Source: Colwellia sp.
Lineage (GTDB): Bacteria; Pseudomonadota; Gammaproteobacteria; Enterobacterales; Alteromonadaceae
NCBI GenBank assembly: GCA_029938115.1
Contig: JAPYOP010000003.1
Span: forward strand, 1 to 64,000
Reading direction: 5' to 3'
DNA: 64,000 bases
Below the pieces are notes generated by a model. It was not told the origin of the DNA. It ran no database searches and worked only from the letters and a program-made list of their open reading frames with translations. The translations under genes were made by a program, and so were the position numbers. This document shows, piece by piece, positions 267-14,741 of the stretch. Position 1 is the first letter of the stretch. Each line of letters begins with the position of its first letter.

Positions 267-1031
267 TTATAATGTGATTTGAAGGCGCGTTTGTGTTAAC
301 GCTTTCTTAAAGGATAGCAAAGATCCATTAATTTTTTTGCATGTTTTATCATTAATTTTTTCTTTATAACATGCTTCAATATCTAACCTTTGCTGGTCTT
401 CCATAAACCTGAAAATTTGCGCTTCTAAACCTTTATCTCCTGGGATGACAATCTCCGCTTTTAGGTTTTTCCCATCGCGAAGGCCTTCAAAAGAAGCAAC
501 TAGCGCTGACTTTTTGTTCTCAATTTTATAAATCAAGCAATTACTCATTGTGGTAGTTGCATCAACTGAAATATTGGTGTTGATTTTTGGGCTTTGGGGA
601 ATAGTCATAGCTTTACCACCTTTTTCTGGTTGGATAGTAACATCTCCTTTTGAGAGTAGTTTATTCAAAGCGAGTAAGTCTTTACCATGAGCTTCAATAA
701 TTTTTTTAGCTTCTTTTACATTTTCATTAATTACATGATTTTCAAACTCGCGTAATTTTTCAACAGATTTAATCATCTTATTACAGTGAGCTTTTTCTTT
801 ACTTTCGATAACGTCATCAAAAGCTAAGTTATCGGAGTCAGCTAGAAAAAACATCATTTCCTCTTCATCAATTGTGAAGTCTAAACTATCTTTATCAGCT
901 TTGGATTTTAGTTGTAATTTTGCTATTTTGTGTAAATGATTTAATGCCTCCATGAATTCTTCCGTGGCAAGGTAAATAATCTTTCCTTCTTTGTTTTTCT
1001 TAGCGTTTCCTATTTTCTTTTTAAAAGACAT
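267..1031 (-). CDS. Hypothetical protein (254 aa) in operon with the giant tyrosine recombinase
   Basis: ORF track; 15-bp gap to the preceding gene, same strand. Confidence 0.75.
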   Translation of the reverse strand: MSFKKKIGNAKKNKEGKIIYLATEEFMEALNHLHKIAKLQLKSKADKDSLDFTIDEEEMMFFLADSDNLAFDDVIESKEKAHCNKMIKSVEKLREFENHVINENVKEAKKIIEAHGKDLLALNKLLSKGDVTIQPEKGGKAMTIPQSPKINTNISVDATTTMSNCLIYKIENKKSALVASFEGLRDGKNLKAEIVIPGDKGLEAQIFRFMEDQQRLDIEACYKEKINDKTCKKINGSLLSFKKALTQTRLQITL

Positions 1032-1046
1032 GTACTTCTCCTTAAG

Positions 1047-4000
1047 TTAATTTATTTCTGGTTGAATCATTAAAAACATCGTTAAAAGAAACAAAGCATG
1101 ATGAACTTTATTGTCTCCATACGCCCTATCTTGAGAGTCATCTGTTATTGGGTAAAACTTCACTAAGATGCCAGTTTTATATCCATATCTACGTTTTACT
1201 CGCGCTTTTTCATCTACCTTTATTACTTGGTAACCGAATCCTGAGATAAGCAGGGTGAACTTTTCGTAATCATCAGGTGCAATAATTAAACCTCTGTTTT
1301 TTTCATACGACTCTCGCCAAACTTCACTTAAATAGTTGGCTTGAGTGATATCCTTCAAAGTTTCTACCATCTTTTGTAGAGTCACCTGAAATGATGGCAT
1401 GCGAATATACTTTGAAGCGGTTAATAACCTTCTCTGGTTTGTTTCAAATGTAAGTTCTTTTTTATCAGATGCTATATTGATTCCTGCATAAGCCATTTGT
1501 TTTTTTAAATGAATTGCAGTATTTACAACCTCTGTGACAAACTGAAAATCTAAGCTCAGTAATTGAGTTATTCTTACATTAGACAAACCACGTTCAGCAG
1601 CTCTTATGACATGTTCAATATCATAGAGAACATTTAAACGCTGCTGTGGTTTGTTAGATATTATATTACTTAGAATAAACTCTCGATTAGACCTAGACAC
1701 CGCTGTTCTTTGATAATCACCCCATTCTTTTTGGGAGTGTGAAACTAACGGCTGATAGCCTAGTGACTCTGCATTACGTGATAAAATTTTATTACAGTTA
1801 GCTTGATTGATATTGACCAAAGCGAAAATAGGGTGTTTTCGCTTTTTGATAAACTCAGGATGGTCTTCATGTTTAATATTAATATTAAATAGGCACTTTT
1901 CATTTTCGCTAGCATGAATTATATCTAAAACGTGAATATAGTGATGTAATGTCGTTGCTGGGCTGGAATGTCCCATTGCTTTTGCGATAGCATGAAGTAT
2001 TTGCCGTTTATCTTTTTCTCTCGATAAATAGCTTTGTCGTAATTGCACTGAAAATAGAGTTAAATCATCTGTATCTGCCCACAGCTTAAGTTCACTTGTA
2101 ATCGCTACTGGGTAGTAGCTGTCATGCATGCAGAGTAATAAATAGTTTGCAAAACTGTGTCTACAGTGATGTAAACGTAAAGTGTCGTCTCCTGAGACTA
2201 GCCTAAGTGTTTCTCTGACTCGACTTAAGTTGTTGTTTAAGTTTACTCGACATTGTGCGTTTGCCTTATCACTAAATAACCATAGGTTGTTTAGTCCAGT
2301 ATGATGAGATTTAACTAAATTAATTTGTTTAATCAATAATTCTTTTTCATCATCACTGAGCAATAAAGCAATGGGAATTCGTCTATTCGCTGCACTTGTT
2401 TTTAATCGATGATAGTAATATGAACGAACATGAAGTATCCAATTTTCAATATCAATATCTTGAAGCATTAAAAATAAGGCTTCACCAACTCGTAACCCAA
2501 TACGATAGCATAGCAATAGAATTATTTGATTAATTCTTCTATCATTTTCATTAAAACATTCATCGTTATTTAACACTGACATCATATTTGAATATTCTGT
2601 CATTGAAATTATATTTGCATTAACCTCGTCGTCATGGTCAATAGAGGGCTCAATCTCTTGCCAATCCAACGGATAAAAATCAAAATGATTTTCTAAAAAG
2701 TGATGAAATTGTCTAAATTCTGATGCTCTTGCTCTTTTACTCTTAACGTTTTTTGAGCTTATGGCCTTTGTGTAAACCTGCGCTAATTCATCACTGGTCA
2801 GGTCAAGGATGTTATTGGCCTCCAATTGACTAAGAAGAGGTTGGGCAACGTTAGACAAGTGAGTTTTTGGTGTTCTAACAGCACGTTCTCTGCCGCTGCC
2901 ATTCTTTTTCTTTGATGTGTCAATAGCCCAAAGTACCAGTAGGACAGTCACCTCATTTAGCATATTGGACTTTTCGATTAACTGGTTGATACTTGTTTCA
3001 TTTATACAGCCAATGAATTCTCCCCAAACTTGAATTAGTAAGTCGGTTGTGGTTGTTTTTCTCTTCTCGTTATCTTGTTTAAATAAAGCTTTTTGTATTT
3101 GTTTTAAGAATTCTTGCGATTTTTTAAAGCTCATGTCGTTACTGCTAATACCTGAAATAGAATTCAGTGCGTTAACATTTTCTTGGATTATTGGTATTTG
3201 TGCAGATAGAAGTTTAACTGGCTTTGAGCTTAGCCAACGTGTCAATACTTCTTGACTGAGCGAAGTCGTATTTAAGTGGCCATTTTGATAACTAAACGCC
3301 AAAGCGCTTTGATTCTCATCTCTACTATCTCTAATATATTTTGATAACTTATCCAGCGATTCGAATGCGTTAATCGATTTAATATCTAGAAAGGTAAAGA
3401 GGAATATTGACGATAACCCTGTTAAGTATTTGTCAGTGATGAGTTTATCAAAGGTGTTTTTTGACAGTACAGCATTTTTATAAGCTGAGCTTTTCAGTAT
3501 CAACATTAAAGTAATCGAATCAATAATGACTCGATTTTGTTTTTCAAAATCAAACCAAGCAACACCATTTTCAAATACAGGTGATGCTTGAATTACTTTT
3601 ATTGTTTTTTTGTTTACAGATATATTGGCGTTAGTATTAACGATTAGGCTGAGAACAATATTTACTAGCTGTAGCTCTGCAGAGCCATCACAAACCGTAC
3701 AAAACAATCCATTGAAAGTTTGTTCATGAAAGAATAAATCATTGATGTATGCCTTGATTCGTCTAGTTTCTTGCATTTTTAACAAGGCATCAACTTCGAG
3801 ATGCAAATTAGCTGTCTCAGTAGTAAAGCACAAAGAACCTTTTTCTAGCGTATTGAATATCTGCTGGTTTAACCAGTGCATTCGTGTTCTTTTGTTGATG
3901 CCACAACTTTCGTCTTTTTGAGCCTCTTCAATAATTATACTTTGTGTTTTTTCACGAGTTTCATTATTCAAGAAATCTTCGACATGAGGTTTGAGAATGT

Positions 4001-6263
4001 TTTTCCCCCATTTATTCAACGCTTTTAGCTCTTTATCTTCAGAGCGGTATAAAAAATCGGCTCTATATCCTTCATCAAGCCCCTTCATTTCAATAGCATA
4101 TTTAGGGCCTCTATGTGGTTTGTAAGTCACTATTGTAAAGCCAAGTTTAACGAGTAAATTGTCCAATGATGTTGTTACTGATTTTAAATCAGCAATAGAG
4201 GCACAAGAAAAGTCAGAAAGAAAATGCTCATTGTTATTGACGTGACCCATTAATGAGTTGGAAAAGCTATACTCTTCACCATCACTTAAGTGTTGGCTTA
4301 ATAAGTGGCGAAAGCAATTAATAGGGACATTGAGCTCAGCGTCAAAATATTTTGAGATATCGCTGTTACTGACCGCTCTCAAGTTAGTGTTACTTAAATG
4401 ACTAATAATGGGCCACTGGGCAGAATGAAATTCGGCTGACGTTGCTATTTTTTTTGCTAGCTCGCCATTAAATTTATCAATATGCTTTGCTGTTTCTATG
4501 CAGAAGTTTTTATAAGCCGTTAATTGTTCAATCACTAAATTGCTCAGTGGTAATAAGCGTATAGCACTTTCTTCAAAATTCACTTTGTCACTGAGTAAAA
4601 TGTAACCCGAATCTTCATTCCATATATAGGGAGTGAAACCAAACTCTGTTCGGTCTCGGTGTCCCGTAGAAGCAAGTAGCATTGTAGTAATGTAGCAAGA
4701 AAATAAATTGTGTCTTAAAATAAGTTCATCAAAGCTTAGTTTAGTACTATCAAGCTTTAACATTTGAGATAACGTTGTCGATTTTTTTGTTATGACGGTG
4801 TTGATATAACTGATATCAAGAACAAGTTCAGAGCCTACCATGGCATTAGTGTTTAATTGAGAAGGCAAGGTTTCGATACCTAACTCACCCAAGGCCAGGT
4901 GATAGTCACTGGCAAGTTTTTTCGCTTCAGCAGATATATAATACAGCGAAGTCGGATTTATAAATTCTGTATTTGCTAATAAGAGTGCGGTATACGCAGC
5001 ATCATGTTTGTGAACAATCTTGTTAAACATTAATCCACGCAAAGCGGCAGGCGTTATCTGACGGTGGATTAATAGGTTATCTCTCCAAAATGGTTTCAAA
5101 AAGCTTGAAAGTTGAGTACTGATAGAACTTTCACCACAACAAAGTTCACCAATAATTGCGCCATCACCTATCCCAGATGTTTGATGCTCTGCTTCAATTG
5201 CACCAATAAGAAAGTTCGGTAAAGACAAATGTAGCCACTGAGTGTGCTGAGATAAGCACATTTCTTGTGATTCTTTTTGAGAATAAGCATCAGGCATTTT
5301 TATGCTTTTTCTAACCCAAGTGCCACTACTTAAGTCAATATAATCATCAGAAGGACTTTCAGGTGTTTTAGAGAAAATTTTGATGTTTGAAATGTTTTCA
5401 AAGGATTTGGATGTAAGTGCTACTATCATTGCAAAAATGGCTAACTTTCTAGACTCTTCTTTTGTAAATGCATGCTTTATGAAAGTAATTAATTCACTTA
5501 CTTCGTGCTCTGCTAGGACATTTGAGCGCCAAGGCAATTGCATTAGTTCAATTGTAGTTAAACGGTTTCCATAAATATTATTAGTATTTTTATAACCTTC
5601 CTCTTCATTGTCCAAGCCAGTAAATGACTGAGATAATTCCTCCCATTTTGATGAGAAACAATCATCAATATTTAGCTCTTTAACTTGAACTATTTTATTT
5701 AAAGCGTCTTTCAAATGTTTATATTTAAATGACTCAAAAGGTATTTTGAAATTGAATACCTCATGATCCTCTTCAACTTTTTCAATCAATTTTCTCAAAG
5801 AATAAGCAATATTTTTTAGATCTCTATTTTCTTCTTCATTCTCAATATTTGAATTACTTAGTACTTGAAAAAACATTAACACTAAAAGTGATAAAACTTC
5901 TTTTTGTTCAGTAGTTACATGACGATGAAACGGTTGAGCAAAAAGCGTTGCGAAAGGAAAAAATTTTATATTTCCGACTAACGGATTAGCCCCTGTGTCA
6001 AACGTGTAAGTTTTATATACTTCTGTATTTTTTACATCTAGCAATGTATCGTAGCGCTTAAGTAAAACAAGTTGCTCAGAATTTGGCCATTCAATTCGCA
6101 AAACTACTTCATGGGCATGAAATAGCATCTCAACAATATTTTTGACACCAGTAAATTCAGGTGACATAAATTTTGGTGAAAGGATCTCAGAAAGAAGGGA
6201 TGCATCTATTGATGGGTTTTCATCAGTAATTTTTCTAATAAAACTATGTTGCTTAGCCTGCAT
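1047..6263 (-). CDS. Giant tyrosine recombinase/integrase-like protein (~1738 aa)
   Basis: C-terminal catalytic pattern GLRVGEAL...HHCRHSFANYL...MGHSSPATTLHHY. Start moved from 6281 to 6263 because GGAGG lies just upstream of that ATG. Confidence 0.88.
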   Translation of the reverse strand: MQAKQHSFIRKITDENPSIDASLLSEILSPKFMSPEFTGVKNIVEMLFHAHEVVLRIEWPNSEQLVLLKRYDTLLDVKNTEVYKTYTFDTGANPLVGNIKFFPFATLFAQPFHRHVTTEQKEVLSLLVLMFFQVLSNSNIENEEENRDLKNIAYSLRKLIEKVEEDHEVFNFKIPFESFKYKHLKDALNKIVQVKELNIDDCFSSKWEELSQSFTGLDNEEEGYKNTNNIYGNRLTTIELMQLPWRSNVLAEHEVSELITFIKHAFTKEESRKLAIFAMIVALTSKSFENISNIKIFSKTPESPSDDYIDLSSGTWVRKSIKMPDAYSQKESQEMCLSQHTQWLHLSLPNFLIGAIEAEHQTSGIGDGAIIGELCCGESSISTQLSSFLKPFWRDNLLIHRQITPAALRGLMFNKIVHKHDAAYTALLLANTEFINPTSLYYISAEAKKLASDYHLALGELGIETLPSQLNTNAMVGSELVLDISYINTVITKKSTTLSQMLKLDSTKLSFDELILRHNLFSCYITTMLLASTGHRDRTEFGFTPYIWNEDSGYILLSDKVNFEESAIRLLPLSNLVIEQLTAYKNFCIETAKHIDKFNGELAKKIATSAEFHSAQWPIISHLSNTNLRAVSNSDISKYFDAELNVPINCFRHLLSQHLSDGEEYSFSNSLMGHVNNNEHFLSDFSCASIADLKSVTTSLDNLLVKLGFTIVTYKPHRGPKYAIEMKGLDEGYRADFLYRSEDKELKALNKWGKNILKPHVEDFLNNETREKTQSIIIEEAQKDESCGINKRTRMHWLNQQIFNTLEKGSLCFTTETANLHLEVDALLKMQETRRIKAYINDLFFHEQTFNGLFCTVCDGSAELQLVNIVLSLIVNTNANISVNKKTIKVIQASPVFENGVAWFDFEKQNRVIIDSITLMLILKSSAYKNAVLSKNTFDKLITDKYLTGLSSIFLFTFLDIKSINAFESLDKLSKYIRDSRDENQSALAFSYQNGHLNTTSLSQEVLTRWLSSKPVKLLSAQIPIIQENVNALNSISGISSNDMSFKKSQEFLKQIQKALFKQDNEKRKTTTTDLLIQVWGEFIGCINETSINQLIEKSNMLNEVTVLLVLWAIDTSKKKNGSGRERAVRTPKTHLSNVAQPLLSQLEANNILDLTSDELAQVYTKAISSKNVKSKRARASEFRQFHHFLENHFDFYPLDWQEIEPSIDHDDEVNANIISMTEYSNMMSVLNNDECFNENDRRINQIILLLCYRIGLRVGEALFLMLQDIDIENWILHVRSYYYHRLKTSAANRRIPIALLLSDDEKELLIKQINLVKSHHTGLNNLWLFSDKANAQCRVNLNNNLSRVRETLRLVSGDDTLRLHHCRHSFANYLLLCMHDSYYPVAITSELKLWADTDDLTLFSVQLRQSYLSREKDKRQILHAIAKAMGHSSPATTLHHYIHVLDIIHASENEKCLFNINIKHEDHPEFIKKRKHPIFALVNINQANCNKILSRNAESLGYQPLVSHSQKEWGDYQRTAVSRSNREFILSNIISNKPQQRLNVLYDIEHVIRAAERGLSNVRITQLLSLDFQFVTEVVNTAIHLKKQMAYAGINIASDKKELTFETNQRRLLTASKYIRMPSFQVTLQKMVETLKDITQANYLSEVWRESYEKNRGLIIAPDDYEKFTLLISGFGYQVIKVDEKARVKRRYGYKTGILVKFYPITDDSQDRAYGDNKVHHALFLLTMFLMIQPEIN

Positions 6264-6512
6264 CCTTGCCTCCTTTCTCATTCTGAAAATAATTTATTAT
6301 CTTAACAAGAATAACTTATCACAAAAAAAAGCAATGTTAGGTAGATGTATAAATGAGTAGCAATAAAGTTTAACTAACTAGTTTGTTGTTTGTTTTTGGT
6401 TTTGTGTGCTGTGTTTTTCTTTATTTTTGGTTTAAATGACTGTATCTATTGGTTCTAAACTTTAAAATGATACGATAAGAAACTTAGGCTTTCTGCGAAT
6501 TTTTCAATATAA

Positions 6513-6738
6513 GAAAGATTTTACAGGCAATAGGGTATTCAGAAAGCATATGATTGATGGCTGACAAGTATTAAACTTATCATTAGATTATATGAATGCG
6601 CTCAACCTTGGGTGTGAAACAGCGGGGATGACTTCTTACGAAGAAGTAGATTGCCTTAACCAAGTAAGTAAGCATATACAGAAAAAAGCTATGCACCTAT
6701 TAGATCAAATTGATGAAGTAATCTTAGTTGAGCTGTAA
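6513..6738 (+). pseudogene. hipA remnant (copy A), internally deleted
   Basis: Nucleotide similarity to 13857-14489 (e.g. AGAAAGCATATGATTGATGGCTG; GATTGCCTTAACCAAGTAAGTAAGCATAT) with ~0.4 kb missing. Confidence 0.8.
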
Positions 6739-6996
6739 CATTCTTTGTCGCTCGAAACTTTAATATGCTCACTTGAGACCATATTATGCTATCATTATGG
6801 TGTTAATGTCTTTGATTGAATAGACCGTGAATAAAAAAGTAGTTCAATTTTGAGACATACGAAGTCTTCAGCTGAAAATTGTAATTTAAAAGGTTGTCAC
6901 AATTTTTATAATTAAATATCAGTTATAACTTACTTTTTTTGCCAAGCAATTTTTAAAGTACATTAAAGTAAGCCTAGGTAAGTTTAAAAAATCAGC

Positions 6997-7041
6997 CTCA
7001 TAACCCGAAGGTCGTCAGTTCAAATCTGGCTCCCGCAACCA
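6997..7041 (+). other. tRNA-fMet 3' fragment (anticodon loop to CCA), probable attachment site
   Basis: CTCATAACCCGAAGGTCGTCAGTTCAAATCTGGCTCCCGCAACCA; tRNA match starts at the anticodon loop and no 5' half is present. Confidence 0.85.
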
Positions 7042-7361
7042 ATTCACCTCATAAAAAGCAATAAGTTAAAGCAATCCCATTTATTGCATTACCCTACTTT
7101 TATCAAAATCAGTGTAACGTGACATATAATTACGTCACGAAAAATTGATTATTAACTTAAATGTATGAGTTAAATATTTTTTCATTTTCCTTAGTTTTAC
7201 TTATCTCTACAAACCCCCTTACAAACACCAAAAAACCAGTTTGTAACCTCAGTGAGACATTTCTTATCGTTTTGCTCTTTGCATAAATCAATAAAAAATC
7301 AGTTCACTGCTAACAAAAATCGCTTTTCAATATCATCAGCATTTTTTGTTATCTTGTATAT

Positions 7362-8885
7362 TTATAATAACGAATTGATAAACCTTGTAAAAGGTACAAT
7401 ATCTTCTTCTACACTGGCAGCTTCCAGTGCTTGCATATACTCTTCTCGTCTTTCAACGGGCACAACTGTCCAAGATAAACCACCTGATGCCATCATTAAG
7501 TTCATGATAAACCGTCCCATGCGGCCATTACCATCAAAGTAAGGATGAATATAAACAAAAATGAAATGGCCTAGGATGACTCGAACAACTGGGTTTTCTT
7601 CTGCTATCAGCAAGTCAAAAAGTGCAGGCATCATGTCGCGAACCGCTTCCCTGCTTGGTGGTGTATGCATCGATTTTCGAATAAACACTGGACCTGTTCG
7701 ATAACCTGCTAAATCAGATTGCTTAACAATACCAGCCGCGACACTTGGGCCAAACAAAGCTAAGTACCAATCACCATGAACCGCTTCAAAAACTTCACCA
7801 CAATTTTCGCCATGTAATACCCGCTCAACCGCAAGTTTTACTTGTCGAAAAGCATCCCAGTAGCCTTTCGCCGCCATCGCATCGAGATGCTTTTTACTCT
7901 CATCTGATTGCTTTGGGTGCCAATTCCCTGAACTTATCTGCTTAATAAGTTCATAGGTAACACGATAACCTTCAATGGATAATGAGTGATAAGCGTCACT
8001 GACAAACTTATCTTCAACTGCTGTTAAGTAGTCATCGACATTTATTGACTCTACGTTTACTGCTGGGAAATGTTCGATAACATCATCACGCATAGCATGC
8101 CACATCAAACGCATGCGATTCACATAGGGAGATACTTCACGGCGGTCAAAGTTGAATGACGCTTTATCTTTAAAAGGGTCGACTTCTTTAATTTTATAAT
8201 CAGCTGCATCCATCCCTTTAATAATGTTATCAGCAATCAAATCACGGCCAATATTTCTAAAAGCTCCCGTTAAACGGCCAGCTAACGTGACATGACCACC
8301 TTCAAGTAACACCACAAGTACTTCTGAAGCATCTGTTATCATAGATAATGCAGTTCGCATTTGAATGGGTCTATCAACAAAAGTATTTTTTGAACAATGC
8401 ACAATAGCAGCAGCCAAGCTGTAAACCCGTAGATTATCAACTATCAATAATTGGTTTGGGTTAGGTAATATTGAGCGAATATCAAACACCGAAGTATTAT
8501 GAATAAAGCTAGTTGGCTTATTGCGCCCTTTAGGTGAACGAACCAATAGTTGTAGTGGCACTGTTTTATCACCAATATGTAATTGGATCGATTGTTCAGG
8601 AGATAAGCACCAGTTTTGTTTTAATCGTTCATCTAAATATGCCGCACAAAAATCCCAATAGGAAGCATACCAAGATGTACTATCACCCATTTGTTCATCT
8701 GGGCTTGAGGGGATATACCAGCCACGCATTATTTCACGAATAAAGCCGTGTTTAGACAAACGCTCTCTATCACCACGCTCTAGAATTTTTGATTGTAACG
8801 CAACAATACCCTGATCTTGCAACAGTTTTAATTGCTCTAAAGAATGCGCCAATTTTTGAGATATTGTATTTATACTCATGACCAC
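7362..8885 (-). CDS. Fic family protein with AbiEi-like N-terminal domain
   Basis: HPYFDGNGRMGR Fic motif; SLSIEG inhibitory-type motif; N-terminal ILERGDRERLSKHGFIREIMRGWYIP. Start may be GTG 8885 or ATG 8879. Confidence 0.88.
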   Translation of the reverse strand: MVMSINTISQKLAHSLEQLKLLQDQGIVALQSKILERGDRERLSKHGFIREIMRGWYIPSSPDEQMGDSTSWYASYWDFCAAYLDERLKQNWCLSPEQSIQLHIGDKTVPLQLLVRSPKGRNKPTSFIHNTSVFDIRSILPNPNQLLIVDNLRVYSLAAAIVHCSKNTFVDRPIQMRTALSMITDASEVLVVLLEGGHVTLAGRLTGAFRNIGRDLIADNIIKGMDAADYKIKEVDPFKDKASFNFDRREVSPYVNRMRLMWHAMRDDVIEHFPAVNVESINVDDYLTAVEDKFVSDAYHSLSIEGYRVTYELIKQISSGNWHPKQSDESKKHLDAMAAKGYWDAFRQVKLAVERVLHGENCGEVFEAVHGDWYLALFGPSVAAGIVKQSDLAGYRTGPVFIRKSMHTPPSREAVRDMMPALFDLLIAEENPVVRVILGHFIFVYIHPYFDGNGRMGRFIMNLMMASGGLSWTVVPVERREEYMQALEAASVEEDIVPFTRFINSLL

Positions 8886-8970
8886 TAGCTTTTGATGTGA
8901 TTTTAAATTAGCTTTTAGTGTAACATATGGTTAGCTTTTATCGTAAATAAAAACTAGCTTTTAACGTAGG
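8886..8970. repeat. Four direct repeats (TAGCTTTTNNYGTRA) at exact 23-bp spacing upstream of fic
   Basis: TAGCTTTT at 8886, 8909, 8932, 8955. Confidence 0.85.
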
Positions 8971-9061
8971 GTTTAATAACTATTGCCTTTATCTAGCTGT
9001 ATTTTCATTTTAGCTAAAGTAATCAATGAATCCTAGTTAACGTAACGTCATTAAAGAATAT

Positions 9062-9994
9062 CTAAAAGTAATGATGTAAATTCTCATACCCTTGTTTGAT
9101 GTGTTCAATTAACAGCTTAACCTTATTGGGTAAATGCTTGGTAAATGGGTATACGGCATACACACCAAGCTCTCTAGTTTTATAGTCAGAAAGTAGCTCT
9201 ATTAAGTCACCTTGTTGAATATCTTCATAAACACTGCATTTGGGAATATAAGCAATACCATAACCTCCAAGTGCGGCTTTACGTAATGCTTGTGAATTAT
9301 TGGTGGCAAAGCTACCAGATATTTTAATGCTCTGCTCTTTATTGCCTTGACTAAACCGCCACTCATAACCACCTTGCCGCTGATACGTGTATGCTAAACA
9401 GTTATGCTGCAATAAATCATCAGGTATTGTAGGTTGACCATGTAACTCTATGTACTTAGGTGAGCAACATACCACCCAATGAGACGTTATTAATGGCTGT
9501 GCAATCAAACTGGAGTCATCTAGAATGCCAGTTCTAATGGCAAGATCAATCCCTTCTTTTACTAAGTCAACAAAGTCATTCTCTAAACGTACCTCTACTG
9601 AAATACCTGGGTTACGCTGACTAAATTCAGCAATACATTGCGCTAAAAATAATTCACCAGAAATGGTAGGTACTGTCATACGAATATGGCCCGTCATTTT
9701 CTCACCAAAATCCGATACCGAGTCGATAGCCTCTGAAGTTATTTGACTAACCATCTTGGCGCGTTGCGCAAGTATTTTACCTGCCTCAGTCAATGTTAAA
9801 CTGCGTGTGGTTCTATACAATAATTGCACACCGAGCTCTTTTTCTAATCGCGCTATATGTTTGCTAATAACCGAATTAGTTAAATTATTAACCTCCGCAA
9901 CCTTACTAAAGCTACCGAGGTTTACCACCTGTGAAAACAAAATCAAATCATTTGCCAGCATAATTATTGAACTTTTGGAAATAATGTTCTTCAT
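9062..9994 (-). CDS. LysR family transcriptional regulator
   Basis: N-terminal HTH LILFSQVVNLGSFSKVAEVNNLTNSVISKHIARLEKELGVQLLYRTTRSLTLTEAG. Confidence 0.93.
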   Translation of the reverse strand: MKNIISKSSIIMLANDLILFSQVVNLGSFSKVAEVNNLTNSVISKHIARLEKELGVQLLYRTTRSLTLTEAGKILAQRAKMVSQITSEAIDSVSDFGEKMTGHIRMTVPTISGELFLAQCIAEFSQRNPGISVEVRLENDFVDLVKEGIDLAIRTGILDDSSLIAQPLITSHWVVCCSPKYIELHGQPTIPDDLLQHNCLAYTYQRQGGYEWRFSQGNKEQSIKISGSFATNNSQALRKAALGGYGIAYIPKCSVYEDIQQGDLIELLSDYKTRELGVYAVYPFTKHLPNKVKLLIEHIKQGYENLHHYF

Positions 9995-10095
9995 TATCTC
10001 TATTTATCACGGAAACATAAAGAGTAAAATAGCGATAGTTTTAAAATATAAATACTGTAAAAGCCACTTTTACTATACCAAACAGGATTAGCACT

Positions 10096-11247
10096 ATGAT
10101 TATCTCAGCACCAACGGATTACCGAAAGGCAGCAAAAGCTAAACTGCCTCCCTTTTTATTTCACTATATTGATGGCGGCTCATATGGTGAGCATACCCTG
10201 AGAAAAAATACAGAAGATTTAGCTGAATTAGCGTTAAGACAACGTGTTTTAAATAATATGTCTGAGCTAGACTTAAGCACGGAACTTTTTGGTGAAAAAA
10301 TGGCGTTACCTATCGCCCTTGCACCAGTGGGACTTACTGGCATGTATGCACGTCGTGGCGAAGTTCAAGCGGCGAAAGCTGCTGACAATAAGGGCTTGCC
10401 ATTTGTCATGTCAACCGTTTCTGTTTGTCCCATAGAAGAAGTTGTGCCAGCAATTAAACGTCCTATGTGGTTTCAACTTTATGTACTTAAAGATCGTGGT
10501 TTTATGAAAAACGTGCTTGAGCGTGCAAAAGCCGCAGGAGTTACCACCCTAGTTTTTACTGTAGATATGCCTGTACCTGGCGCCCGTTATCGTGACATGC
10601 ACTCTGGCATGAGTGGCTCTAACTCCGCCGCTCGACGAGTATTTCAGGCGATGCGCCACCCACACTGGGCATTTAATGTCGGCGTTTTTGGTAAGCCCCA
10701 TGATCTAGGCAATATTTCAACATACCTAGGAGAGCCAACTAAGCTAGCAGATTACATTGGCTGGTTAGGCGAAAACTTTGATCAATCTATTTCTTGGAAA
10801 GATCTTGAATGGGTTAGAGATTTTTGGGATGGACCCATAGTTATTAAAGGCATTCTTGATCAACAAGATGCTAAAGATGCGGTAAGTTTTGGTGCTGACG
10901 GTATTGTTGTCTCTAATCACGGTGGCCGTCAACTTGATGGAGTTTTATCATCAGCTAAAGCACTGCCTAGTATTGCTGATGCCGTAAAAGGAGATATAAA
11001 AATATTTGCCGACTCTGGTATTCGTTCGGGCTTAGACGTAGTAAGAATGTTGGCTTTAGGTGCAGACTGTACTTTACTTGGTCGTTCATATATTTATGCG
11101 CTAGCTGCGCAAGGACAGCAAGGCGTTGAAAATTTGCTAGACCTATACGAACAAGAAATGCGTGTCGCCATGACGTTAACAGGCGCTAAATGTATTAAGG
11201 ACTTAACGATAGATTCTCTTGCGAATATATCGTTGATTAACCGTTAA
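10096..11247 (+). CDS. lldD: FMN-dependent alpha-hydroxy-acid/L-lactate dehydrogenase (LldD-like)
   Basis: [55 protein letters not shown]; divergent from LysR. Confidence 0.9.
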
Positions 11248-11258
11248 AACAGAATACT

Positions 11259-11290
11259 AGCGGCAGTTAAATCAACGGCCGCTTATTTTC
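11259..11290 (+). terminator. Weak stem-loop terminator after lldD
   Basis: AGCGGC...GCCGCT followed by TTATTTTC. Confidence 0.45.
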
Positions 11291-11304
11291 AAAGTTCAAT
11301 ACTG

Positions 11305-12569
11305 CATGTTAAACATTAACCCTCGAACTAAAGCAGGAGTTATGCAGCGGTGAATTGATAAGTTATTTTTCCAAAAGGTTTTTAGGAAACTTATAAGCTG
11401 AGTTTCAATAGACTGCTTCTCACAACAAAGCTCGCTAAGTGTTTTCCCCTCAATAATATTTAATGAAGTAAGCTCTTGTTGAATTGCATCGATGAGGAAC
11501 GTGGGCAGAAATAAGATACAGCCACTTAGTATATTTGGATAAATAGACTACTTGCTTTTCTTTTTGACAAAATGATGCTGGCATTTTCACGCTTTCTCTA
11601 ACCCATACGCCGCTGCTTAAATCAATATAATCACCTGAGGGAGTTTTTGGCTTTTTAGAGAAAAGTTTAAGAGTTGAAATATTGCTAAACGGTTTGGATG
11701 TTAAAGCCACTATCATCGCAATAATGGCTGGTTTTCTTGACTCTTCGTTTATCAATGCTTGTTGGATGAAAGTAAGCAATTCAATGGCTTCGTGCTCAGC
11801 CAGAATATTTGAACGCCATGGTATATGCATCAACTCCTCTGTAGTTAAACGATTACCGTAAAGCTGGGAGTTATCGGCATCTGTTTGCTTTTCGTCATTT
11901 TCTAACTCAATAAATGATAGTGATACTTCTTTCCACATAGTTGAAAATGTGTCAGGAATATTCAATTCACTTACTTGAATTATTTTCTCTAATGCATTTT
12001 GTAAACGCTGATATTTAAATGATTCAAAATTAATTGCAAATGGAAAACGACTATTGTCTTTTTTAATATTTGCAATAAGTCCCCTCAAAGCGTTTGCAAT
12101 ACCTATAAGGGGATTTTTACTGGATGAACTATTAATATTTGAGTTCAATAATATTTGAAAAAACACTAGTACCAATAAGGATAAAACGTCTTTTTGATCA
12201 GTAGATACCTTTAGGTTAAATGATTGAGAAAATAACGCTGCAAAGGGTAGGCTTCAATAAGGTTTAATAATGGATCAATAAACTCAATTAAGTAATCATT
12301 CTTGTATACGTTAGTATTTTTAACATCGAGTAATGTATCGTATCGCTTAAGTAAAGCTACTTGCTCAGACGTTGGCCACTCAAACCTTAATGCAACTTCA
12401 TGGCATGGAATAACATCTCAACAAGATTTTTCACACCACTAAACTCTGGCGACATACATTTTGGGGAAAGGATCTCAGAAAGAAGAACAGCATCGATTGA
12501 TGGGTTTTCATCCGTAACTTTTTGTATAAAAATATGCTGATTAATTTGCATCCTTGCCTCCCTTTTCAA
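11305..12569 (-). pseudogene. Truncated, frameshifted copy (B) of the giant recombinase, matching residues ~1-420 of copy A
   Basis: MQINQHIFIQKVTDENPSIDA..., ELMHIPWRSNILAEHEAIELLTFIQQA, ITPALVRGLMFN spread across frames on the reverse strand. Confidence 0.88.
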
Positions 12570-12756
12570 AAATAACCGTTTTTCATTAACTAGAAGGTAT
12601 CACAAACGAAGAGTGGATTTTCAAAACGACATAAAATTCTTATAAACTCTGTTATTTTTAATTGTTTGTGCTGTATTTGTTCTATTTGGTGGTTATTTAT
12701 TCTGGTGGATTTGGTTTTTACATGTGGGTATAGGTAATTGCAATTTGCTAAATAAT

Positions 12757-12822
12757 AACCGTTATCGGGGATTAAATTAACTTTACATACATGGTTTGTT
12801 TATTTCACCGTTATCGGTGATT
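12757..12822. promoter_or_regulatory. Two candidate HipB operators
   Basis: AACCGTTATCGGGGATT (12757) and palindromic TCACCGTTATCGGTGA (12805), 49 bp apart, upstream of hipB. Confidence 0.6.
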
Positions 12823-12888
12823 TATTGTTGATATGTTTACTTTTTCATTTATAATCATTTTTATAGGTGATTAATTTAGAGGGGACTT

Positions 12889-13170
12889 ATGGCAAAGCAA
12901 GTCATTCCAACAGAAATGCCGAGTGAGTCATTGATAACAGACCCTGTTCTTTTAGGCGCTTTGATTAAGGCTAAGCGAACGGCTATTAGAATGAAACTAA
13001 GTGATTGCGCTGCGCTTTGTGGTATTGGCATTAATACGCTTTCACGTATTGAAAATGGCAACCCCAATAGTACACTTGGAGCTGTTTTTTCTGTTCTGAA
13101 TGGATTGGGGATAAAGCTATCTACTTTGGAGCAGATAGACAAAGCCGCAATTAAAAATGATTGGGTATAA
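12889..13170 (+). CDS. hipB: HipB-like antitoxin, XRE family HTH
   Basis: HTH LGALIKAKRTAIRMKLSDCAALCGIGINTLSRIENGN; directly precedes hipA. Confidence 0.85.
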   Translation: MAKQVIPTEMPSESLITDPVLLGALIKAKRTAIRMKLSDCAALCGIGINTLSRIENGNPNSTLGAVFSVLNGLGIKLSTLEQIDKAAIKNDWV

Positions 13171-13172
13171 AA

Positions 13173-14489
13173 ATGGCATATTCTTTAGATGTTATTTATG
13201 GTCAACAAGTTATCGGCCAATTAACTCAGCGCATAGATACAGGCTTGCTCGAATTATCATATAGTCAGCAGTGGCAAGAAACAGGCTTTGCAATTTCACC
13301 GGCTTTAATGTTTGAAAAGCAGCATGGTAAAGCGGCAGCTTATAATTTTTTAGATAACTTACTTCCTGAAGGTGAAGCGCGAAAATTACTTGCCCAAGAT
13401 CTTGGTGTAAATGAAAAGCAGGTGTTTCCCCAAATAAAAGCTATTGGTAGTGACCTTTGTGGCTCCTTCTCTTTTCTATCAGAGCAAGTATCGCCATCAG
13501 ATGAGCCTATTTTTAGGGTAATTAAAGAAGAAGAGCTTATTCATCGGCTAAATAATAAAGAGGATATTGGGCTTTTACAGTGGGATGAAAAGCCAAGATT
13601 AAGTGTTGCAGGTGTTCAGGATAAATTAAATGTTTTTGTGAATGAGCATGACGAAATTGGTCTAGCTGATGGCACACTAAGCTCTACTTATATTCTTAAG
13701 TTTGAGCGTAAAGACTGTGTTAATTTAGTTATTAATGAATATTTTTGCATGAGGTTATCAGAACTTGTTGGCTTACCAACATCAGAAGTAACATTGAAAC
13801 GATTCGGCAAGCATCCTGCTCTTTTAGTAAAACGCTTTGACAGAAAATATGATGTCACAAGCAATAGAGTATTAAGAAAGCATGTGATTGATGGCTGCCA
13901 AGCGTTGAACTTACCAAGAGACTATAAGTATGAGCGCAACCTAGGTGATGGGAGGGATGTAAAGCATATTCGAGATGGTGCTAGTCTAGAAAAATCATTT
14001 AGTTTTTGTCGCCAATCATCAGAGCCAATTGCAAATATGCAATGGTTAATTAATTGGCAACTGTTTAATTTACTGATCAGTAATTATGACAGCCATGGTA
14101 AAAATATTTCTTTTTTCTTTGGTGCTGGTGAAAGCGTTTTTACACCCGCGTACGATTTAGTCAACGTTGCGATGTTTGATCAATTTAAGCACACTTTAGC
14201 AATGGGCATGGGAGATGAATTTGAGCCTGACACCATCAATGCTTATCAACTGGCGGATTTTGCTGATAGTTGTCAGCTTGATAGAAAGATAGTCAGTAGT
14301 ATGCTCAATGAGCTAGCCACAAAAGTATTAAAAGTACTCGCTGAAAATAATATAGCACCCGAGTTAGAAGCAGCGGGAATAATTTCTGACGAAGAAGCCG
14401 ATTACCTTAATCAAGTAAGTAAGCATATTAGGAAAAGGGCTAGGCACCTATTAGGCCAAACTGATGAAATAACTTTGATTGAACTGTAA
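13173..14489 (+). CDS. hipA: HipA-like serine/threonine kinase toxin
   Basis: SVAGVQDKLNVF, NYDSHGKNISFFF, YDLVNVAMF; start adjusted from 13161 to ATG 13173. Confidence 0.9.
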   Translation: MAYSLDVIYGQQVIGQLTQRIDTGLLELSYSQQWQETGFAISPALMFEKQHGKAAAYNFLDNLLPEGEARKLLAQDLGVNEKQVFPQIKAIGSDLCGSFSFLSEQVSPSDEPIFRVIKEEELIHRLNNKEDIGLLQWDEKPRLSVAGVQDKLNVFVNEHDEIGLADGTLSSTYILKFERKDCVNLVINEYFCMRLSELVGLPTSEVTLKRFGKHPALLVKRFDRKYDVTSNRVLRKHVIDGCQALNLPRDYKYERNLGDGRDVKHIRDGASLEKSFSFCRQSSEPIANMQWLINWQLFNLLISNYDSHGKNISFFFGAGESVFTPAYDLVNVAMFDQFKHTLAMGMGDEFEPDTINAYQLADFADSCQLDRKIVSSMLNELATKVLKVLAENNIAPELEAAGIISDEEADYLNQVSKHIRKRARHLLGQTDEITLIEL

Positions 14490-14724
14490 CGTTCTTTGTC
14501 GCAGCAGACCTTTATTATGCTACAATTATGGTGTTAATGTCATCGGTTGAATAAACTATACATATGACAGTAGTTTAATTTTGTGGCATATAAAAATTTT
14601 GTCTTAATATTGAAAATTAAAACGTTGTCACAACTTTGATAATTAAATGTCTTTAAAATAACACTTTTTTTGCCGAGTGATTTTTAAGGTACATTAAAGT
14701 AAGCTTAGATGATGCAAAAAAATA

Positions 14725-14741
14725 AGCCTCATAACCCGAAG
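14725..14741 (+). other. Eroded tRNA-fMet-derived att-like sequence (copy B)
   Basis: AGCCTCATAACCCGAAG identical to 6994-7010, with homologous upstream flank (ATTTTTAAGGTACATTAAAGTAAGC). Confidence 0.7.

Follow-up and report, generated by a model that had tools for sequence, protein, structure and literature searches.

A single open reading frame near the start of a Colwellia sp. contig (JAPYOP010000003.1, positions 1 to 64,000, hereafter the window) encodes a protein far larger than the one recombinase recognizable in it, which raises the question of what the remainder of the chain is and what it does for the enzyme. The original prediction, made from the sequence alone, described a giant of ~1740 aa with perhaps two or three tyrosine recombinase (TR)-like domains, only one of them complete, and proposed an in-cis array of pseudo-recombinase domains that could serve an active one in synapsis or DNA-end recognition.

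Layout of the giant recombinase gene

The giant occupies positions 1050..6263 of the minus strand and has 1738 aa, with its stop codon at 1047-1049. Its start was assigned to the ATG at 6263, which has a GGAGG ribosome-binding site just 5′ of it, and an in-frame ATG at 6281 is a less likely start; no interruption was found between ATG 6263 and the stop codon. Fused homologues in a single ORF (L036-L044) have 1762-1834 aa. On the same strand, the chain was divided into an N-terminal helical region (residues 1-224, 5592..6263), D1 (residues 225-475, 4839..5591), D2 (residues 476-725, 4089..4838), a linker (residues 726-1105, 2949..4088), D3, which comprises a core-binding and a complete catalytic domain (residues 1106-1470, 1854..2948), and a C-terminal tail (residues 1471-1738, 1050..1853). 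Comparison with the B ORFs of unfused relatives, described below, assigns the linker to the N-terminal part of an ancestral gene B. Gene C (267..1031, minus strand) starts 15 bp after the stop codon of the giant, has its own AAGGAG site and encodes an accessory protein of 254 aa without known family, and its homologues are found directly 3′ of the giant in seven fused relatives.

Three tyrosine recombinase folds in one chain

D3 was matched by Pfam PF00589 at residues 1223-1375 (E 6.7e-12) and by the profile of ordinary TRs with an hhalign E of 5e-15. Its catalytic residues are R1258, K1288, H1365, R1368, H1432 and Y1442; all are kept in 22/22 homologues except the His-II residue H1365, which is kept in 15/22. 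A complete recombinase at the C-terminal end had been predicted, and the sequence motifs quoted in that prediction are all present in the ORF.

Searches with the single sequence of the N half against Pfam, NCBIfam, PHROGs, PADLOC and PDB sequences gave nothing meaningful. We compared 29-sequence profiles of the segments of the giant with a profile of 29 ordinary TRs, with 20 column-shuffled profiles per domain, reversed profiles and the other segments of the giant as controls. D1 matched ordinary TRs over 173 columns with an E of 3.9e-6 (score 46.7, shuffled maximum 16.8), and D2 over 134 columns with an E of 6.6e-9 (score 65.7, shuffled maximum 16.0); both matches stand well clear of the shuffled and the reversed profiles. 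The same comparison found no TR domain in residues 1-221, 726-1105 and 1471-1738, that is, in the N-terminal helical region, the linker and the tail. The similarity of D1 reaches significance with deep profiles only: 10-sequence profiles, which are too shallow, gave no significant match for D1 and a borderline one for D2, and the E of D1 weakened to 6e-5 once columns were restricted to the residues of the window. D2 and D3 have hardly any direct similarity to one another by profile comparison. AlphaFold (AF2) models built from 5 sequences were poor (pLDDT 48.6 and 55.8), and their Foldseek matches serve only as supporting evidence for a TR fold in the N half; the best PDB matches of the N-half model were TRs, XerA (probability 0.80, E 0.31) and an MRSA integrase, and the C-half model, used as positive control, found XerD first (probability 0.97, E 0.023).

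These comparisons confirm, at the level of sequence profiles, a single chain of three TR folds in which D3 alone is complete, as neither D1 nor D2 holds the full catalytic set within one domain. The in-cis array thus takes the form of two pseudo-domains and one complete domain, and it is common to the full-length homologues. The two outcomes named beforehand as counting against it did not occur, since the N-terminal segments match the TR fold and the homologues extend beyond the C-terminal domain.

Conserved residues of D1 and D2

Profile alignment placed in D2 an Arg-I (R536), Lys (K560), Arg-II (R652) and His-III (H674), with N649 at the His-II position and no Tyr, in agreement with the degenerate second region of the original prediction, in which Asn replaced the first His and Tyr was missing. 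The third, weaker region of that prediction proved to be a real TR fold, D1, but its description needs correction because D1 retains the Tyr position. In D1 the Arg-I position is S287, Lys is Q339, His-II is A406, Arg-II is the variable R409, His-III is N431 and Tyr is Y442. D1 therefore has no Arg-I, Lys or either His, its Arg-II is usually gone outside the fused clade, and Tyr442 (nt 4938-4940) is its sole invariant catalytic residue.

In an alignment of 33 A sequences (A is the N half of the giant and a separate gene in unfused relatives), 8 of 426 columns were invariant, namely Y442, G477, R536, K560, R569, N649, R652 and H674. According to the mapping of D1 and D2 by profile, the invariant residues at catalytic positions make up one set, with Asn for His-II, spread over two domains; judged by these alignments, the two degenerate domains together retain almost exactly the parts of one further cutting site. 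Type IB topoisomerases have RKRH and Y and lack His-II, and the R, K, R and H of D2 are the topoisomerase IB set; Asn in place of His-II may be tolerated in D2. A phylum-wide search added 18 A homologues with <=34% identity to any training sequence. Among them Y442 was found in 13/13, R536 in 16/16, K560 in 15/15, R652 in 16/16, H674 in 16/16 and N649 in 14/15, and column 685, near the position of the absent Tyr of D2, was free to vary. This conservation is strong, but it is not independent proof, because the same residues help to anchor the HMM alignment.

The best-surviving alternative, to which we give roughly one chance in three, is that D1 and D2 are inert, that is, non-cleaving DNA-binding TR folds that provide nothing but synapsis or end recognition for D3, as in the original prediction and as has been proposed for Tfp of SE elements. 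The losses in D1 and the missing Tyr of D2 fit this explanation, and there is precedent in Tfp and in GinC of GInt islands, TR-fold proteins without all or some of the catalytic residues. It is opposed by the presence of the Arg-I, Lys, Arg-II and His-III of D2 and the Tyr of D1 among the eight invariant columns, and by their fixation in the additional homologues; as far as conservation can tell, the pocket of D2 and the Tyr of D1 are kept beyond the needs of a passive scaffold. At the other extreme, D1 and D2 could form a second, split active site, for which D2 would give the Arg-Lys-Arg-His pocket and D1 the nucleophilic Tyr442. This is possible because the complementary invariant residues persist in the additional homologues, yet we regard it as rather unlikely, and a chain with two active sites built from three TR folds remains a tentative picture.

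Two-gene origin and distribution of the family

A homologue search of 197 related genomes returned seven nearly full-length matches plus partial ones. In other genomes the N half of the giant corresponds to a gene A of about 620-840 aa and the C half to an adjacent gene B of about 910-1,210 aa; A and B usually overlap by 4-16 bp, with ATGA in several. Since A and B are separate, adjacent and usually overlapping in these relatives, the giant arose by fusion of a co-translated gene pair. In a tree of the B domain the fused proteins formed one clade with support 1.0, of which one member (L045) is split, and an independent fusion (L053) was found in G107; by this tree, the A-B fusion arose at least twice. 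Acinetobacter plasmids carry additional fused forms of 1680-1800 aa. The A profile failed to reach three of the Acinetobacter fused proteins at E 1, and their motif match therefore rests on the multiple alignment.

Members of the family occur in Alpha- and Gammaproteobacteria and are present in more than 200 Acinetobacter plasmid records; there the proteins bear the names 'hypothetical protein' and 'site-specific integrase'. A pattern search of genome contigs found only four relatives, all from Colwellia. A phage origin was considered and dropped, as no match was found among phage records or viral contigs. On a Ketogulonicigenium plasmid (L248), a 248-aa gene follows B in the same position as gene C. 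The region 5078-13278 of this alphaproteobacterial plasmid holds a likely four-gene operon of 142 aa, A (738 aa), B (1014 aa) and 248 aa, with HTH and HipA genes after it; HipA is also found near the Colwellia copies and some Acinetobacter copies.

Islands, attachment sites and a second integrase

Next to the giant lies the displaced 3′ half of a tRNA-fMet gene, beginning in the anticodon loop (6997..7043, plus strand, 47 bp, CTCATAA...CCA), which is the right attachment site of an island. It is 100% identical over 47 bp to the start of contig C153 of G000, which lies inside a tRNA-fMet gene. The sequence GTACATTAAAGTAAG (6958..6972, plus strand), a candidate arm-type recombinase site, recurs at other tRNA-fMet island ends, and TGTCAC (6895..6900, plus strand) is a conserved sequence some 95 bp inward from the island end, of which GTCAC is common to 10/10 aligned island ends. 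Equivalent junctions of a displaced half with GTACATTAAAGTAAG-like and GTCAC end sequences were found in other genomes. The contig of the window starts inside this young island, so that one island end is in the window and the other is off-contig. Both ends were seen in G103 (91 kb), G160 (66 kb), G152 (54 kb) and G020 (40 kb), and each of these four islands has a tRNA fragment and an intact tRNA at opposite ends, as in a tRNA-targeted island. These alignments establish the island context of the giant.

An older tRNA-fMet island remnant (7044-14741) stands in tandem with the young island and contains a Fic protein (7362-8885), LysR, an FMN dehydrogenase, a decayed giant and a HipA toxin (13161-14489). 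The decayed giant is a second copy of the N-terminal part (11305..12551, minus strand, 42-77% identity by segment), and the degenerate attachment site CTCATAACCCGAAG (14728..14741, plus strand) marks the end of the remnant. The 40-kb tRNA-fMet island of G020 (contig C23, L160-L162) carries type I restriction-modification, LeoABC-like and RtcR-CARF defence genes. In two genomes with unfused relatives, 17-nt matches to the tmRNA 3′ end were found.

INT392, a conventional integrase with Arm-DNA-bind_2, is likewise encoded on the A-B islands, and next to it is a small HTH gene whose size and position make it Xis-like. INT392 was present in 23/24 A-B genomes, compared with 27/197 overall (hypergeometric P 7e-25, uncorrected for phylogeny), and occurred without detected A-B in four of these 197 genomes. 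A conserved module beside the giant (L168 3118-7839, L039, L065-L067) consists of an AAA ATPase, an HD-domain protein, INT392, the Xis-like HTH and an XRE repressor; AAA and XRE are absent from some copies.

On plasmids, a DNA-level search found A-B in 221 Acinetobacter records, and INT392 was found in just four plasmid records, one of them from Acinetobacter. One plasmid-borne fused form is located near parA/parB and rep. On several of these Acinetobacter plasmids, whose 221 records include L034, A and B lie together with a 154-aa upstream gene beside a Y-family polymerase/umuD region, with A annotated as 'hypothetical protein'. No DNA site specific to A-B was found, Acinetobacter plasmids included; a 230-bp Acinetobacter plasmid sequence is shared with plasmids that have no close match to A-B, and on one of these a distant fused A-B lies in its vicinity.

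The co-occurrence of A-B and INT392 leaves either enzyme as a possible tRNA-fMet integrase. That the giant is the integrase of the island, with INT392 redundant or in another role, seems doubtful to us, at about one chance in four. Fused relatives do lie in tRNA-fMet islands, in several of which the giant is close to the displaced half of the tRNA, and unfused A-B was found near tRNA-Val in five genomes. Because the INT392 tree parallels that of A-B, however, either could track the attachment site, and nearly all A-B genomes also carry the arm-binding INT392, which stands beside an Xis-like gene. The positions also disagree with the giant as integrase, as both genes are mid-island in G020 and the giant is at the opposite end in G152. 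Since INT392 co-occurs with A-B in islands and plasmid A-B is mostly without INT392, it is likelier that A-B is a second recombination system carried along by the element, on whose circular form it may act, than that it is the tRNA-fMet integrase. Finally, the idea that the N half is a relic, made of pseudo-domains that arose by duplication and drift without function, draws on the loss of canonical catalytic residues from D1 and D2, but is contradicted by the conservation pattern, with selected residues strictly invariant at 20-34% identity, by uninterrupted frames of 1738-1834 aa in ten genomes and by repeated fusion to B, and we consider it very improbable.

Proposed mechanism

The explanation that we favor, and hold to be moderately probable, is that the giant is a two-gene fusion with three TR folds in which D1-D2 is a built-in partner of D3, forming a trio or heterodimer pre-assembled in cis. 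D3, as the complete catalytic domain, would cut and rejoin DNA, and D1-D2 would act as a partner subunit carried in the same chain. The pocket of D2 (R536, K560, R652, H674, and N649 for His-II) may grip the scissile or an equivalent phosphate, and D1 would add its invariant Tyr442; both this phosphate contact and the partnership with D3 are inferred. Such a pre-assembled trio or heterodimer would give an asymmetric synapse. Its substrate would be the element in circular or plasmid form, and integration at tRNA-fMet would more likely fall to the conventional Int and Xis pair found in these islands.

The sequence confirms a tyrosine recombinase in the form of a three-fold fusion protein. Recombinase trios that include a catalytically dead partner occur in several mobile elements; in the giant the partner is covalently attached, which fixes its stoichiometry and position, and its conserved residues point to mutants worth making. 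If the split site were true, it would show a recombinase active site partitioned between duplicated domains.

Comparison with known systems

In Flp, Tyr is donated in trans by identical protomers. A split site in the giant would similarly pair a Tyr with a pocket from a different domain, except that two diverged tandem domains would take the place of identical protomers. Gamma-mobile-trio islands are likewise described as defence-rich mobile islands with a recombinase. An identity with them was rejected, since NCBIfam NF040693 GmtY (441 positions) has no match at the locus of the giant; other TRs of G000 and relatives match GmtY weakly.

Tn554 has two TRs and a small accessory, TnpC, in one operon, and both TnpA and TnpB have the RHRY motif (PMC10214605); it differs from the giant in having no tandem pseudo-domains. 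SE elements, which are strand-biased circularizing integrative elements, encode intA, tfp, intB and srap, and their Tfp contains a single TR fold, at residues 193-403, without RHRY; no tfp deletion mutant could be obtained (PMC10214605). The likeness lies in a TR-fold partner without catalytic residues, in an operon with recombinases and the small Srap. Unlike Tfp, gene A has two TR folds, with the pocket and the Tyr kept in different domains, and the A-B elements sit in tRNA-fMet. Defining features of SE elements also include a 6-bp footprint and a strand-biased circularization that leaves no empty site. GInt islands (ginABCD) encode three TR-related proteins, of which GinC is degenerate, and a small accessory, and the gin genes, ginC included, were reported to be essential for recombination (PMC5385486). 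The giant shares with them three TR-related units and a small accessory, degeneracy among the units, and a location in genomic islands with cargo. In GInt the units are separate genes, two of which have typical TR catalytic features, whereas the giant is one chain with one complete and two degenerate domains and has a separate conventional integrase in its island; A-B comes as two genes or one fusion, not as separate ginA, ginB and ginC plus ginD. Because the operon differs, membership in GInt or SE is not established and the likeness is one of architecture, by which the giant resembles a GInt- or SE-type recombinase trio joined in cis.
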